NCBI RefSeq assembly: GCF_000151205.2
Contig: NC_016051.1
Location: forward strand, 1,054,001-1,118,000
Direction: 5' to 3'
DNA: 64,000 nucleotides
Origin: Thermococcus sp. AM4
GTDB taxonomy: Archaea; Methanobacteriota_B; Thermococci; Thermococcales; Thermococcaceae
Positions 22,127 through 28,624 of this stretch are shown one piece after another. Made by a program: the position numbers and the translations under genes. Positions within the stretch are counted from its first letter, which is position 1. Each line of letters starts with the position of its first letter. The notes beneath the pieces are model-generated. The model did not search any database. It saw only the letters and a list, made by a program, of their open reading frames with translations, and was not told the origin of the DNA.

Positions 22127-24607
22127 TCAGTCAAGGCCCCTCCACTTCACGAGGCCGAGCAGGAACCTGTGGGGCAGCTTCTCGTGATGCGGATGCACCC
22201 TGATCGCGTAGTGCCAGCAGGGATCGCCGAGGTGCCTCAGGGCACTCCCCTCGTAGGTGTAGACCCACTCGTCACCCTCACTCCTCGGATGCCTCAGCTC
22301 GACGATGTGGGGCTTTTCGATTTCATAGCCCCTGGCCCTGACCCCGTAGTAGAGCTCGACCTTTACGTCCTCCGGTGAGAGGCCGTCGAGGTAAATCCTG
22401 ACCGTCAATCTCTGCCCTTCAACCCGCGCGTCCCTTATCTCAACATTGTCCCAGGCTCCGGTAACCCGCTCCTTCCAGGCGGCTATCTCCTTGGCCCCCC
22501 TGTAGTTGTCCCTCGTCAGCCAGATGTAGTTGCTCATGGCCTTTGAGTAGAACTTGTCCATGTACTCCTTGACCATCCTGTGGGTGCTGAAGCGCGGGGC
22601 GATGCTCTTTATGCTCTCCTTCATCATGTAGATCCATCTGGAGCGGTTGCCGTAGTACGTCGGTACGACCTCGTCCTCGAGTAGGCGGTAGAGGCTCTCC
22701 GCGTCCTTGGGATCGTCCTCCTCGGTCTCCGGTTCCGTGCTCTCCTCACCTATGACCCAGCCGTTCTTGCCGTTGTAGCCCTCGACCCACCAGCCGTCGT
22801 AGATGCTCAGGTTCAGAACACCGTTCAGGCCGGCCTTCATCCCGCTCGTTCCGCTGGCTTCAAGGGGTCTGCGTGGGTTGTTGAGCCAGACGTCCACGCC
22901 GGCCACCATGAGCCTCGCGCTTCCCATGTCGTAGTTCTCGATGACGAAGATCTTCCCCCTGAATTCGGGCATTTTGCTGACCTCATAAACCCTCCTGAGA
23001 AAAGCCTTACCGCCTTCGTCCATCGGGTGGGCCTTTCCTCCGAAGACTATGTAGACCGGCCTCTCCGGGTCGTTCAGTATGCGCTTCAGCTTCTCCAGAT
23101 CGCTGAGTATCAGGGTGGCGCGCTTGTATGTGGCGAAGCGCCTCGCGAAGCCGATTATGAGGGCGTTCTCGTCCATAGCGGGAATCGGATCGTCCACGCC
23201 GAGCCTCTGGTTCCTCTCAATGGCCTTTCTCCGGAGGAGCTCTATGAACTGTCTCTTTGCCTCGAGGTGGGCCTCCCAGAGCTCCTCGTCCGGGATCCTC
23301 TCAACCGCGTACCAGATACCCTCTATGTTCGTGTGCTCGCGCCAGACCTTGCCGATGTAGCGGTCGAAGAGCTTCCTCATCTCGTTGTGCACCCACGTCA
23401 TCGTGTGCACGCCGTTGGTTATGCCCTCGATTGGTATCTCGTTCAGTGGAACCCCAGGCCAGAGGTTCTGCCACATCCGCTTGCTAACCTCCGCGTGCAG
23501 CTTGCTGACACCGTTCACGTAGCTCGACGTCCTGATCGCGAGCAGGGTCATGTTGAGCTGGTCGCCTTCCCTGCCGAGTTCGAGTAGTTCCTCCCTGCCC
23601 TCAAGGAATCCGGCGAGCCGTTTCCGAACCTCCTCAATCGGGAACCTGTCGTGGCCGGCCGGAACGGGCGTGTGCGTCGTGAAGACCGTCGTCCCCCTGA
23701 CAACGCTCAGAGCCTCGGTGAAGGTGAGGCCTTCATCCATGAGCCACGCGATCCTCTGGAGGTTTGCGAAGGCGGGATGACCCTCGTTGAGGTGGACGAC
23801 GCCGGGTTCTATTCCCAAAGCCTTCAGCAGTCTCATTCCGCCGATGCCGAGGAGGATTTCCTGCTTTATCCTCTTGTCCATCTCGGCGTTGTAGAGGTAG
23901 TCGCAGATGGTTCTGTCGTCTTTGCTGTTCTCGGGAACGTCGGTATCGAGGAGATAGATCTTCACCCTGCCGACCTGGACTTCAAAGGCCCTCGCGTAGA
24001 CCGTCCTGTCCCCTATGGGAACCTCTATTAGGAGCCTTTCCCCGTTCCTGTCGAGGACGGGCTTTATCGGCATCTCCTCAGGTCTGTACTCCGGGAAAAC
24101 CTCAATCTGGTTGCCGTTCTCGTCGATCTCCTGTCGGAAATAGCCGTGCTTATAGAGCAGGCCGACGGCTATGAATGGAAGCCCGAGATCGCTCGCGGTC
24201 TTGACGTGGTCTCCAGCCAAGATACCGAGCCCGCCGGAGTAAATCGGCAGGCTCTTGCTTATGCCGTACTCCATACACAGGTACACTATCGGCTTGTCCC
24301 ACTTGGGGTAGTTGGTCGAGAACCAGGTCGAGCTCGGGTTCATGTAGGCCTGAAACTGCTCCATAACGAGCTCGTAGAGGTTCATGAAATCGTCGTCCTT
24401 GACGAGCTCCCGGAAGCGCTCTCCCGGTGTGTCAAGGAGCAGTTTAACTGGATTTTTATAGCTCCTCCAGTGCTCCGGGTCTATGTACTCCCAGAGCTTC
24501 GTCGCACGTCTGTTCCAGCTCCACCAGTAGTTATAGGCGAGATCAACGAGTTCCCCGAGGGGGTAGGGGAGCTTTCTCCTTATTGAATCCGCAACGCTAC
24601 CGGCCAT
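22127..24607 (-). CDS. malP: Alpha-glucan (maltodextrin/glycogen) phosphorylase
   Basis: A PLP enzyme that phosphorolyses alpha-1,4-glucans to glucose-1-phosphate in the cytosol. It feeds sugar catabolism without spending ATP. The 826-residue length and sequence match the thermococcal MalP/AgpA group. Visible are MEYGISKSLPIYSGGLGILAGDH near 115, VVHLNEGHPAF, FTTHTPVPAGHD and the PLP motif EASGTSGMKAGLNGVLNLS, whose Lys binds the cofactor. The frame opens with GTG 24616; GGTGG is spaced for ATG 24607. A TGM operator lies between TATA (TTTTAAAGG, about 24652-24660) and the start, consistent with induction by maltooligosaccharides. Confidence 0.95.
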   Translation of the reverse strand: MAGSVADSIRRKLPYPLGELVDLAYNYWWSWNRRATKLWEYIDPEHWRSYKNPVKLLLDTPGERFRELVKDDDFMNLYELVMEQFQAYMNPSSTWFSTNYPKWDKPIVYLCMEYGISKSLPIYSGGLGILAGDHVKTASDLGLPFIAVGLLYKHGYFRQEIDENGNQIEVFPEYRPEEMPIKPVLDRNGERLLIEVPIGDRTVYARAFEVQVGRVKIYLLDTDVPENSKDDRTICDYLYNAEMDKRIKQEILLGIGGMRLLKALGIEPGVVHLNEGHPAFANLQRIAWLMDEGLTFTEALSVVRGTTVFTTHTPVPAGHDRFPIEEVRKRLAGFLEGREELLELGREGDQLNMTLLAIRTSSYVNGVSKLHAEVSKRMWQNLWPGVPLNEIPIEGITNGVHTMTWVHNEMRKLFDRYIGKVWREHTNIEGIWYAVERIPDEELWEAHLEAKRQFIELLRRKAIERNQRLGVDDPIPAMDENALIIGFARRFATYKRATLILSDLEKLKRILNDPERPVYIVFGGKAHPMDEGGKAFLRRVYEVSKMPEFRGKIFVIENYDMGSARLMVAGVDVWLNNPRRPLEASGTSGMKAGLNGVLNLSIYDGWWVEGYNGKNGWVIGEESTEPETEEDDPKDAESLYRLLEDEVVPTYYGNRSRWIYMMKESIKSIAPRFSTHRMVKEYMDKFYSKAMSNYIWLTRDNYRGAKEIAAWKERVTGAWDNVEIRDARVEGQRLTVRIYLDGLSPEDVKVELYYGVRARGYEIEKPHIVELRHPRSEGDEWVYTYEGSALRHLGDPCWHYAIRVHPHHEKLPHRFLLGLVKWRGLD

Positions 24608-24620
24608 GGCAACCACCGTG

Positions 24621-24637
24621 TATCATCCTTGGTGATA
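24621..24637 (-). promoter_or_regulatory. TGM operator (Tgr/TrmBL1 site) at malP
   Basis: On the gene strand TATCAC-CAAGG-ATGATA, one mismatch from TATCAC-N5-GTGATA. It lies about 15 bp downstream of the TATA element and just before the ribosome binding site, as in repressed glycolytic and glucan-degrading promoters. Function is inferred from motif and position. Confidence 0.8.
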
Positions 24638-24700: not shown

Positions 24701-26578
24701 TCAGGAACCCTCGAAGGCAAAGGGACTGATGTAGTCCCCGTACTTCTCCCTGGCCTCAAGGAGCCTCTTCCGCTCCTCCTCAAGAACCCGGAAGAGCTCC
24801 TCGGGGACTTCCTTAACCTTCTCGCGGTATATTTTCTCGATGCGCTCAATCTTCGCGAGCAGTTCCGGAACCCTTATCGTGAACTGCTTCTCGTAGGCTT
24901 CCCTGCTGTAGTCCTTGTTGAGAACCTCCTTGAAGAGCCTTGCCAAGTCCTCGTACTTCGGGATGTAGCCTATCGGCGTCTCGATTGCATCGACGTCGCC
25001 ATGAACTCTTAACTCCATCCACTTGAGCCAGACGGCTTTGTCGAGCTTGTGGTTGAGCCAGTTGCCGTTCTCGTCGCGGAGGAAGTAGTTGACGGCGAAT
25101 ATCTTCGGCGTTTTCCTCAGCTTCTCGCCGAACCTCAGGTAGTTCTCGATGTACTCGCCGAGCGGGACGCTCATGAAGTCGAGTATGGCCATCGGGTTGA
25201 AGGCTCTAACCCCTTCCTTTCCAAGCGTCGCCGCCGTTGTCTCGCTCTCAAGCGATGCCCCCATCGTTATTACTCCGTGCTTCCAGTCGAAGGCTTCCCT
25301 CACCGGGGGCCAGGTGTCCTTGTCCCTGCCACCGAAAATCATTCCGCCGACCTCGACTCCGCAGGGGTTGTGGAGCGCCTCAAGGTCGACGTTCGGGAAG
25401 TGCTCGAGCGAAACGGTGAAGCGCGCGTTCTTGTGGCTCGGCGGTATCTCGTTGCCCTCTTTGTCCGTCTTGCCCTTCCACCACTTTCCGCTGTGGTTCT
25501 CTCCCTCTTCCGGAATTTCAACGCCCATCTCGTTCCAGTAGGGCTTTCCGTCCTTAATGAGGACGTTCGAGAAGATTATCTCGACCGGTGAGTGCAGGAC
25601 CTTCCAGATTATCGGGTCATCCTCCGGATTGACGCCCTGGATTATGCCGAAAACGCCCTTCTCGACGTTGGCACCGCGGGCGACGCCGTTGACCGGGAGG
25701 ATGAAGGTCAAATCGTCTCCGACTATGTTCTCCCAGGGAATCATCGCCGTTGAGGTCTTACCGCACATGCTCGGATATGCGCCGGTGAAGTAGGTCTTCC
25801 TGCCGTTCGGACCGTTTACGCGCATCAGGAACATATGCTCGCTGAGCCAGCCCTCTTTAACGGCCTTCTGGATGGTGAGCCTGAAGGCGAGCTTCTTAAG
25901 GCCGATTGTATTTCCTCCGTACTGGGTGTTGACGGAGTAAACGGTATCGTCCACGAGGTCGATGTAAATCCTTCTCTTGTCCAAGTTCTTGCTGGTCTTC
26001 CTCTCGTCGAGCTCTCCCGCCGAGTGGACGAAGCGGAAGAACTTCGCGTTCCTTCCCAGCCTTTTGAACTCCTCGTAGCCCTTTCTGTAGAGTATGAACT
26101 CGGAGTGAGCGACGTAGGCCGAGTCGGTGAGCTGAACTGCCGGAATGGTGAATATGGAGTTCTTGGGCCCGAGAACGAAGAAGCAGATGAACAGCTCTTT
26201 TCCGCGCATGACGCCCCTCATGAGCTCCCTTATCTCCTTCAGGCCCTCGTCGCGGTCCTTGGTGTTGAGGAAGGGAATCTCCTTTCCACCGGGGACGAGG
26301 AGCTTGGTGTTGGCCTTGTCCCTCGCCTGGTCGTAGTAGTTGTCGTAGTGAACCGTGTGGTTCGGCGTTTCGAGCATCTTCTCTTCTCCATAGTAGAGGG
26401 CCTTCCAGCGGACGTAATGCTCGTCCTCTTCGCTGTCGGTGCAGACGAAAACCTTGCTCGGCTCGAGCCACTCAATCCACTCCGCCAAAAAAGCGTGAAG
26501 CTCGGGGTTGTCTATCGCCTTAACCTTCTCGAACTGTTCTTCGGGGAGGAGTTCCTTGAGCTTATCGAGAGCCTCCAT
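24701..26578 (-). CDS. pckA: Phosphoenolpyruvate carboxykinase (GTP)
   Basis: Converts oxaloacetate and GTP to PEP, or runs in the reverse direction, linking C4 acids to gluconeogenesis. The 625-residue enzyme is the GTP type. Visible are YPSMCGKTSTAM (kinase P-loop with the reactive Cys), GDDLTFILPVNG (metal/nucleotide region) and EIPPSHKNARFT. GGRDKDTWPPVREAFDWKHG and FLRDENGNWLNHKLDKAVWLKW also match. ATG 26578 follows a strong GGGGGAGGAGG. The gene shares its upstream region with the degenerate phosphohexomutase gene. No TGM lies immediately upstream of its own TATA; the nearest is about 130 bp from the ATG. Confidence 0.96.
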   Translation of the reverse strand: MEALDKLKELLPEEQFEKVKAIDNPELHAFLAEWIEWLEPSKVFVCTDSEEDEHYVRWKALYYGEEKMLETPNHTVHYDNYYDQARDKANTKLLVPGGKEIPFLNTKDRDEGLKEIRELMRGVMRGKELFICFFVLGPKNSIFTIPAVQLTDSAYVAHSEFILYRKGYEEFKRLGRNAKFFRFVHSAGELDERKTSKNLDKRRIYIDLVDDTVYSVNTQYGGNTIGLKKLAFRLTIQKAVKEGWLSEHMFLMRVNGPNGRKTYFTGAYPSMCGKTSTAMIPWENIVGDDLTFILPVNGVARGANVEKGVFGIIQGVNPEDDPIIWKVLHSPVEIIFSNVLIKDGKPYWNEMGVEIPEEGENHSGKWWKGKTDKEGNEIPPSHKNARFTVSLEHFPNVDLEALHNPCGVEVGGMIFGGRDKDTWPPVREAFDWKHGVITMGASLESETTAATLGKEGVRAFNPMAILDFMSVPLGEYIENYLRFGEKLRKTPKIFAVNYFLRDENGNWLNHKLDKAVWLKWMELRVHGDVDAIETPIGYIPKYEDLARLFKEVLNKDYSREAYEKQFTIRVPELLAKIERIEKIYREKVKEVPEELFRVLEEERKRLLEAREKYGDYISPFAFEGS

Positions 26579-26710
26579 TTTTACCGCCTCCTCCCCCTCT
26601 TGGTCGATGTATTAAAATAGTTTGCCGGCGAAGTTAAGTACTCCGAAGAATATTTAAGGACATCAGCCAACAGGTTTTACTGTACTGGCCAGGGAAACCT
26701 TGAAAAGCTG

Positions 26711-26727
26711 TAACACTCACGGTGATA
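26711..26727 (+). promoter_or_regulatory. TGM-like operator in the pckA / phosphohexomutase-like divergent region
   Basis: TAACAC-TCACG-GTGATA differs from the Tgr/TrmBL1 consensus at one base and has the same TCACG spacer as the fba site. It ends 14 bp before the GTG start of the + strand gene and overlaps its probable leader; a TATA-like ATATTTAAGG lies at 26648-26657. Which of the two divergent genes it controls cannot be decided from sequence. Confidence 0.6.
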
Positions 26728-26741
26728 CAGGAGGTGGTATC

Positions 26742-27449
26742 GTGGAGCTTTATTATTCCGAGAAGTTCAACCCGGAGGAGCTGGCTCTTCTCGGGAGGGC
26801 CATAGGAACCGTCGCCCACGGAACGACGATAGTCGGAAGGGACGGGAGAGCGCTCTCGAGGTACGGTAAGAGGGCTATGGTTGTCGGCATAGTGAGCACT
26901 GGATCGACCATAATGGACGTTCGCCTCATACCCCTCATAGCTCTCAAGGACTTCGCCCACAAGAAGGGCCTTCCGCTGGCGTACGTTTACTACTATCGCG
27001 GGGTGCGCGTCGAGGTTAGCGGTCTCGACGTCGACGAGATAAAGACGATCCTCGACAGCAGGAGCTTCATCGAGGCCCATCCTAGCGACATCGGGGCCAC
27101 CGTGTACTACCCCAACGCCCTCGACGACTTCATGAACGACCTTCTCAAAAAGTACAGGTTCAAACTGGATAAAAGGGTTCTCGTGGATGCTATGAACACG
27201 CCGGCGGTTCTCTTCTTCCCGAGGCTCTCGGAGGCCCTCGGCATGGAGGTCGACATAATAAACGACATGATGACCAGCTACCTGCCCCCCAAACCGAAGG
27301 AGGTGTTCCTTCACAAGCTGAGGAAGGAGAACTACGACCTTGGCCTGAGGTTCCGGCCCGATGGGATCGTCGAGGTGCACGCTAACGGGGAAGAGCTCGA
27401 GTTCGGCAGCATGTGGACTCTCCTGGAGCACCTGAAGAAGAACCTTTGA
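26742..27449 (+). CDS. Short, degenerate alpha-D-phosphohexomutase-like protein
   Basis: About 235 residues that align by pattern with the first domains of phosphomannomutase/phosphoglucomutase. GRDGRALSRYGKRAMVVGIVSTGSTIMDV matches the GRDTR region, and a later LVDAMNTPAVLFFPRLSEALGMEVD matches the VDxxNG domain II start. The phosphoserine loop TASHNP is missing (YVYYYRG instead). The metal loop DGDxDR is replaced by FRPDGIVEV, and the C-terminal domain is absent. A mutase reaction is therefore unlikely; a binding or regulatory role is inferred. GTG 26742 follows GGAGGTGGT. It is divergent from pckA and followed by tmk. Confidence 0.75.
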   Translation: MELYYSEKFNPEELALLGRAIGTVAHGTTIVGRDGRALSRYGKRAMVVGIVSTGSTIMDVRLIPLIALKDFAHKKGLPLAYVYYYRGVRVEVSGLDVDEIKTILDSRSFIEAHPSDIGATVYYPNALDDFMNDLLKKYRFKLDKRVLVDAMNTPAVLFFPRLSEALGMEVDIINDMMTSYLPPKPKEVFLHKLRKENYDLGLRFRPDGIVEVHANGEELEFGSMWTLLEHLKKNL

Positions 27450-27518: not shown

Positions 27519-28145
27519 GTGGGTATATTCGTGGTCATCGAGGGCATCGATGGCGCCGGTAAGTCAACGCAGGCAAAGCTGCTCGCGAAGTGGTTTGAAA
27601 GGAAAGGTTACGAGGTCGTGCTCACCAAGGAACCAACGGACACTGCCTTTGGAAAGCTGATAAGGAAGCTCGTTCTCACTGGCGGACGGGAGGGTATAAT
27701 CGACGGGGCTCGAATAAGCCATGAGGCGGAGGCCCTGCTCTTCGCGGCGGATAGGGCCGAACACGTTCACAAACTGATAAGGCCCGCTTTGGAATCGGGA
27801 AAGGTCGTCATCTCCGACCGTTACTTCTACTCATCACTCGCCTACCAGTGGGCGAGGGGGCTCGACCTCCAGTGGCTTATAGACCTCAACAGGTTCGCCG
27901 TTCGGCCGGATCTCGTGGTTCTCCTCGACCTCCCGGTTAAGGAGAGCATGAGGAGGATAAACGGGAGGAGCATTAAGACCGAGTTCGACAAAATACTGGA
28001 ACTTCAGAAAAAGGTCAGGGAGAACTACCTCAAGCTGGCGGAGATGTTTCCGGAGATAAGGATCGTGAACGCCCAGAACAGCATCGAGGACATTCACAGG
28101 GACATAGTGGGCCTCGTTGAGCAGGAGATCCTCTCGGGGATCTAG
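27519..28145 (+). CDS. tmk: Thymidylate kinase (dTMP kinase)
   Basis: Phosphorylates dTMP to dTDP in dTTP synthesis. The 208-residue enzyme shows the P-loop [14 protein letters not shown] near the start, [10 protein letters not shown] (the dTMP-side Arg loop is altered), [16 protein letters not shown] (DRY motif) and [15 protein letters not shown] (lid region). The start is GTG 27519, preceded by GGAGGTGA; a longer frame from 27462 has no ribosome binding site. It follows the phosphohexomutase-like gene by 70 bp. Confidence 0.94.
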
Positions 28146-28546: not shown

Positions 28547-28624
28547 TGGTGCGGTGGCCGGGATTTGAACCCGGGTCACCGGCTTGGAAGGCCGGTGTCC
28601 TAGACCAGGCTAGACTACCACCGC
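28547..28624 (-). tRNA. tRNA-Gly (anticodon TCC)
   Basis: Acceptor stem GCGGTGG/CCACCGC, anticodon stem CCGGC/GCCGG with loop CTTCCAA (anticodon TCC), and T-arm with TTCAAAT. CCA is encoded at 28547-28549 on the complement. No intron. It is transcribed away from the rpo operon. Confidence 0.97.

Follow-up and report, generated by a model that had tools for sequence, protein, structure and literature searches.

We propose that pPMM, a two-domain phosphohexomutase homologue of the Thermococcales, is a non-catalytic partner or regulator of a sugar-nucleotide enzyme, which would first have been a sugar-1-phosphate nucleotidyltransferase (NT) and, in the lineage of the genome studied here, another target; we put the probability of this reading at roughly 0.42. 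pPMM is repeatedly paired with the NT, has lost catalysis and keeps a conserved cleft, which together suggest a partner that controls or stabilises such an enzyme without catalysis of its own, and because pPMM has been kept under strong selection after the NT was lost, its role would be non-enzymatic and probably regulatory.

The gene and its neighbours

The pPMM gene lies at 26742..27449 on the + strand of the window, by which we mean the whole stretch of 64,000 nucleotides that was analysed, taken from a closed Thermococcus genome of 2.086 Mb. Its 235 codons run from a GTG start to a TGA stop and are preceded by a ribosome-binding site read from the sequence (GGAGGTG, 26730..26736, +); an RBS-like sequence also precedes the start codon in the orthologues. 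The divergent neighbour is pckA (24701..26578, −; Pfam PF00821/PF17297), which encodes a GTP-dependent PEP carboxykinase, and the downstream neighbour is the thymidylate kinase gene tmk (27519..28145, +; start codon read from the sequence). Between tmk and an rpoB-like ORF there is a tRNA-Gly (TCC) at 28547–28624 on the − strand. Terminators and sigma-70-like matches predicted near the pPMM gene occurred at chance level only.

While tmk lies downstream of pPMM in all 103 loci, the position next to pckA, which a preliminary description of this DNA had pointed out, is correct for the window and clade-specific as direct adjacency, being limited to part of the genus Thermococcus (genome G024, locus L055, has the same arrangement as the window). 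Elsewhere in Thermococcus the NT gene sits between pckA and pPMM, and at several other pPMM loci pckA is not near.

Domain I of the protein was recognised by Pfam (PF02878, 25.7 bits against a cutoff of 22.5, E = 1e-5); domain II fell below the Pfam cutoff (E = 0.07). The best NCBIfam match was TIGR03990 (archaeal GlmM; E = 5.6e-17, about 377 bits under the equivalog cutoff), and the closest solved relative was the Thermococcus phosphopentomutase 9ix8 (E = 1.8e-11). Three full-length mutase paralogues, with every motif intact, are encoded in the same genome.

A mutase fold without catalytic segments

We built an AF2 model of pPMM from 57 orthologues (pLDDT 87.9, pTM 0.83) and compared it with the PDB using Foldseek. 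All of the top matches were PMM/PGM/GlmM structures (probability 1.00, query TM about 0.7–0.77); the assignment of the protein as a phosphohexomutase homologue therefore holds, and structure prediction returned no unrelated fold. On this model, pPMM has the fold of the first two domains (I and II) of alpha-D-phosphohexomutases (PMM/PGM family). With PMM/PGM and GlmM (COG1109; nearest solved 9ix8, and P. horikoshii PMM/PGM 1wqa) it has in common the domain I–II fold, the GRDGR segment, previously noticed as a GRDxR-like start, and scattered structural Gly, Pro and Asp residues. Part of the model was also matched by PDB 2eiu, a single chain of some 115 aa from Aquifex (AQ1627) named "putative protein", which is perhaps another stand-alone mutase piece.

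The differences from these enzymes (235 versus about 455 aa) lie in the catalytic segments. The protein was aligned against eleven full-length mutase homologues and twelve pPMM orthologues were checked for motifs; SHNP, DGDxDR and S(G/N)TEP were found in none of the twelve, in agreement with the earlier observation that TASHNP and DGDxDR are missing and that the protein stops after about 235 residues. That earlier list did not mention that the N-terminal FGTxGIRG segment is lost as well; in mutases this segment holds an Arg in contact with phosphate. The serine loop (TASHNP) is replaced by a short YVYYYxGVR hairpin and the metal loop (DGDxDR) by GLRFRPDG, and both domain III, with the sugar loop, and domain IV, with the phosphate loop RxSGTEP, are absent; instead of the four-domain architecture of about 450 aa, all 103 loci encode a protein of 233–243 aa. 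Without these segments and domains, mutase chemistry of the known type is not possible. Sensing of hexose phosphates in the manner of a mutase is likewise unlikely with the segments that hold them (N-terminal Arg and the Ser, metal, sugar and phosphate loops) all gone, which weighs against the sugar-phosphate sensor that had been suggested for this protein.

Rashid 2004 is reportedly the primary source on TK1404, a T. kodakarensis protein annotated as a phosphomannomutase (COG1109), and is cited in PMC11940775 for its lack of PGM/PMM activity. By locus order TK1404 is the T. kodakarensis orthologue of pPMM, since the adjacent TK1405 is PEP carboxykinase (PMC3561251). A 2025 paper, in its passages on the four COG1109 genes of that species (TK1108, TK1404, TK1777 and TK2185), identifies TK1777 as phosphopentomutase and assigns PGM and PMM activity, among TK1108, TK1404 and TK2185, to TK1108 only (PMC11940775). 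The inactivity of one PMM homologue of T. kodakarensis was already known from these passages, and the loss of catalytic segments described here agrees with the inactivity that they report for TK1404; the passages on TK1404 make no mention of truncation, operon history or conservation. In the literature searched, outside which most subscription papers fell, we found neither the two-domain truncation with its order-wide conservation, nor the NT operon with repeated NT loss and pPMM kept, nor the parallel to fused bacterial proteins described below, and searches under the presumed locus tags of the Pyrococcus and T. kodakarensis neighbours gave no matches. pPMM carries the annotation phosphomannomutase, which it cannot be, so metabolic pathway models for Thermococcus and Pyrococcus may include a non-existent mutase.

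Retention and selection across Thermococcales

Orthologues of pPMM (68–98% identity) were found in 93 of 94 Thermococcales genomes, among them every one of the 74 with a completeness of 90% or more; the sole genome without one is a draft, 73% complete. In 21 other genomes of the phylum, no match to the family profile passed 1e-12. The gene is intact at all 103 loci read, 81 of its 235 positions are invariant among 88 distinct sequences, and dN/dS (NG86) is about 0.06, with 0.013 for the closest pair, values that are rough because many pairs approach saturation at synonymous sites. The claim that the gene is retained is thus borne out, and the purifying selection proposed as a check on it was found, the gene being neither absent nor broken in close relatives. 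A functionless mutase remnant in the course of decay, which half the usual length and lost catalytic motifs might suggest, is ruled out as a pseudogene by intact orthologues in 93 of 94 genomes, the low dN/dS and the 81 invariant columns, and we give this reading practically no credence.

In the loops following the core strands, on the side that holds the active site in mutases, 64% of positions are invariant, compared to 26–32% elsewhere, and 52 of the 81 invariant residues differ from the residues usual in active mutases. From this combination, the cleft seems to be conserved for something other than mutase function. One such function would be that of a new enzyme with a re-modelled cleft, built on lineage-specific invariants such as R40, K43, R61, Y81, Y83, Y84, K184 and R203; several of the 52 atypical residues are indeed charged or aromatic and lie in these loops, but we consider a new enzyme very unlikely in a protein that has neither a metal-binding cluster nor a clear nucleophile and retains two of the four domains.

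The operon nucleotidyltransferase and its repeated loss

At 70 of the 103 loci, a gene for an NT of the left-handed-beta-helix type (about 361 aa) lies directly upstream of pPMM on the same strand, ending 10–14 bp before its start codon. When whole genomes of the order were searched, this NT turned up in 66 of 94 Thermococcales genomes, representing all six genera, and in none of the 94 was it found away from the pPMM gene, save for contig-end fragments and one decayed copy. Its nearest models were mannose-1-phosphate guanylyltransferase and related nucleotidyltransferases, none of them above cutoff. Weak similarity of the NT to glucose-1-phosphate thymidylyltransferase models, taken with the invariable presence of tmk downstream, would fit a role of pPMM in a dTDP-sugar or nucleotide-linked unit with tmk, but the mannose-1-phosphate guanylyltransferase model scores better, no model passes its cutoff, and a housekeeping gene can be no more than a passive neighbour, which makes such a unit highly improbable.

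The identity of the operon partner also bears on the suggestion, made in the preliminary description, that pPMM is a subunit for an active mutase. A subunit or modulator of a mutase encoded elsewhere, for instance a PGM/PMM (TK1108-like) or the phosphopentomutase, would be in keeping with the three full-length paralogues in the genome, with the fact that pPMM scores best to Thermococcus phosphopentomutase, and with the finding that PF0588, listed as a phospho-sugar mutase, is a TrmBL1 target as well (PMC4706686). Against this, at none of the loci read is pPMM linked to a mutase gene; since its widespread partner is the NT, the subunit idea is more plausible for the NT than for an active mutase, for which we judge it quite unlikely.

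The window genome has no NT orthologue (the best match is a paralogue, 33% identical), and its clade has lost the NT with pPMM intact. Five further Thermococcus genomes, two of them single-contig, carry the wreckage of an NT gene in place upstream of pPMM (loci L035, L056, L028, L033 and L010/L062) at differing stages of erosion, and pPMM is intact in every genome in which the NT is decayed or gone. The dN/dS of pPMM was 0.060 in pairs with the NT, compared to 0.062 in NT-less pairs of the pckA clade and 0.083 across all NT-less genomes, and 110 pPMM columns were invariant in NT-bearing subsamples of 29, versus 98 in the 29 NT-less sequences. As selection on pPMM is unrelaxed after NT loss, the NT cannot be its only partner, and the role of pPMM outlives this NT. 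We also considered whether a lineage-specific paralogue had taken the place of the lost NT and rejected this, because the closest paralogue is nearly universal in Thermococcales. Being universal and having outlived its operon partner several times, pPMM offers a clean genetic case for the study of pseudoenzyme function.

A predicted TrmBL1/Tgr site between pckA and pPMM

The sugar-regulator site mentioned in the preliminary description was recovered as a Thermococcales glycolytic motif (TGM), a predicted TrmBL1/Tgr-type site with the consensus TATCAC-N5-GTGATA; the sequence TAACACTCACGGTGATA at 26711..26727 (no strand assigned) has 11 of the 12 consensus bases. It lies downstream of the TATA-like element of pPMM (ATATTTAA, 26650..26657, +), which was read from the sequence and is aligned in relatives, and about 91 bp upstream of the TATA-like element of pckA (26610..26620, −; TATTAAAATAG on the + strand), which is conserved in the footprint alignment. 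TGM-like sites with at most one mismatch occur three times in the window, where 0.02 would be expected, and in the 19 NT-less loci with pckA close by, the TGM stands at −31 to −37 amid otherwise diverged sequence. TrmBL1 of P. furiosus acts as a repressor when its site lies downstream of the TATA box and as an activator when the site lies upstream, and two promoters can share a site (PMC4706686). By the same rule, the predicted site at 26711–26727 would act in gluconeogenesis as a repressing site for pPMM and an activating one for pckA. Immediately before malP, the gene for alpha-glucan phosphorylase (22127–24616, −), there is a second TGM-like site (TATCATCCTTGGTGATA, 24621–24637, one mismatch), and with predicted sites before malP and between pckA and pPMM, all three genes may be under TrmBL1/Tgr control. 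The third, CATCACCGTGAGTGATA, is at 1241–1257 and also has one mismatch.

A ligand sensor, whose cleft binds a sugar phosphate or sugar nucleotide and which reports to another protein, might also account for the TrmBL1-type site that precedes the gene in one clade, for the linkage of pPMM to sugar metabolism genes and for the strongly conserved loops that come after the core strands. We regard this as unlikely: every mutase segment that contacts a hexose phosphate is missing, and pPMM has neither an effector domain nor a DNA-binding domain.

Proposed role

Under our preferred explanation, a non-catalytic partner or regulator, pPMM would have started out as, or been for a long time, a partner or regulatory subunit of the NT of the same operon, working by protein contact and/or through a ligand in its re-modelled inter-domain cleft rather than by phosphate transfer. 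In the window's lineage, where the NT is gone, pPMM is kept under the same constraint behind a TrmBL1/Tgr-type site, and as that predicted site is placed for repression in gluconeogenesis, pPMM should be made during growth on sugars. Its target there would probably be another sugar-nucleotide or sugar-phosphate enzyme. One possible alternative is the conserved nucleotidyltransferase at G000:C1:392105, a choice that is a guess, because that gene is nearly universal in the order and unlinked to pPMM. Against this explanation, selection is unrelaxed after NT loss, the tree does not group pPMM with the fused bacterial modules described below, and by profile scores it is nearer to active archaeal mutases. 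Contact with a protein partner, the cleft ligand and the direction of regulation are things that we infer.

Fused bacterial proteins and other parallels

A search of plasmid records with the NT retrieved bacterial proteins of 832–845 aa, from Streptomyces, Nonomuraea and Sulfuricurvum, in which an NT is followed by a full-length mutase-like module. We sampled five of them (L123:2501-5038, L124:2501-4999, L125:2501-5017, L127:349-2853 and L128:349-2847); four carry a database annotation, in each case solely "sugar phosphate nucleotidyltransferase". Their mutase-like modules lack SHNP, DGDxDR and SGTEP, so that, as in Thermococcales, a related NT is paired with a mutase-like module devoid of the Ser and metal motifs; the bacterial module is fused, full-length and has a recognisable domain III, whereas pPMM is a separate gene of two domains. 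Among these five proteins, most modules share with pPMM the metal-loop motif R(F/L)xPxG, and all have R40, unlike active mutases, resemblances that could reflect common descent of pPMM and the fused modules.

Only the loop motif favours placing pPMM in one clade with the fused modules, a placement that HMM scores, profile comparison and tree do not support. By HMM scores and profile comparison, pPMM is nearer to active archaeal mutases than to the fused modules; in the mutase tree it sits on a long branch, with weak deep support, and is not placed with them; and in the NT tree no well-supported grouping joined the Thermococcales NT with the fused NTs. For this reason we regard the fused proteins as a parallel case, which indicates that the pairing of NT and mutase-like module recurs, and not as proof of family membership.

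The broader proposition, that pPMM is an order-wide pseudo-mutase regulator, an NT subunit re-used after repeated NT loss, and that the same pairing constitutes the fused control module of bacteria, strikes us as rather doubtful. If it were true, the pairing of NT and dead mutase would be a general but undescribed control module, fused in bacteria, and if the NT pairing is functional, it suggests what the dead mutase module may do in the fused nucleotidyltransferases of bacteria. By analogy only, a dead homologue that regulates a sugar nucleotidyltransferase has a counterpart in GMPPA/GMPPB, in which a dead regulatory subunit serves GDP-mannose pyrophosphorylase (chains 7d72); the dead subunit there is an NT homologue, whereas pPMM is a mutase homologue.
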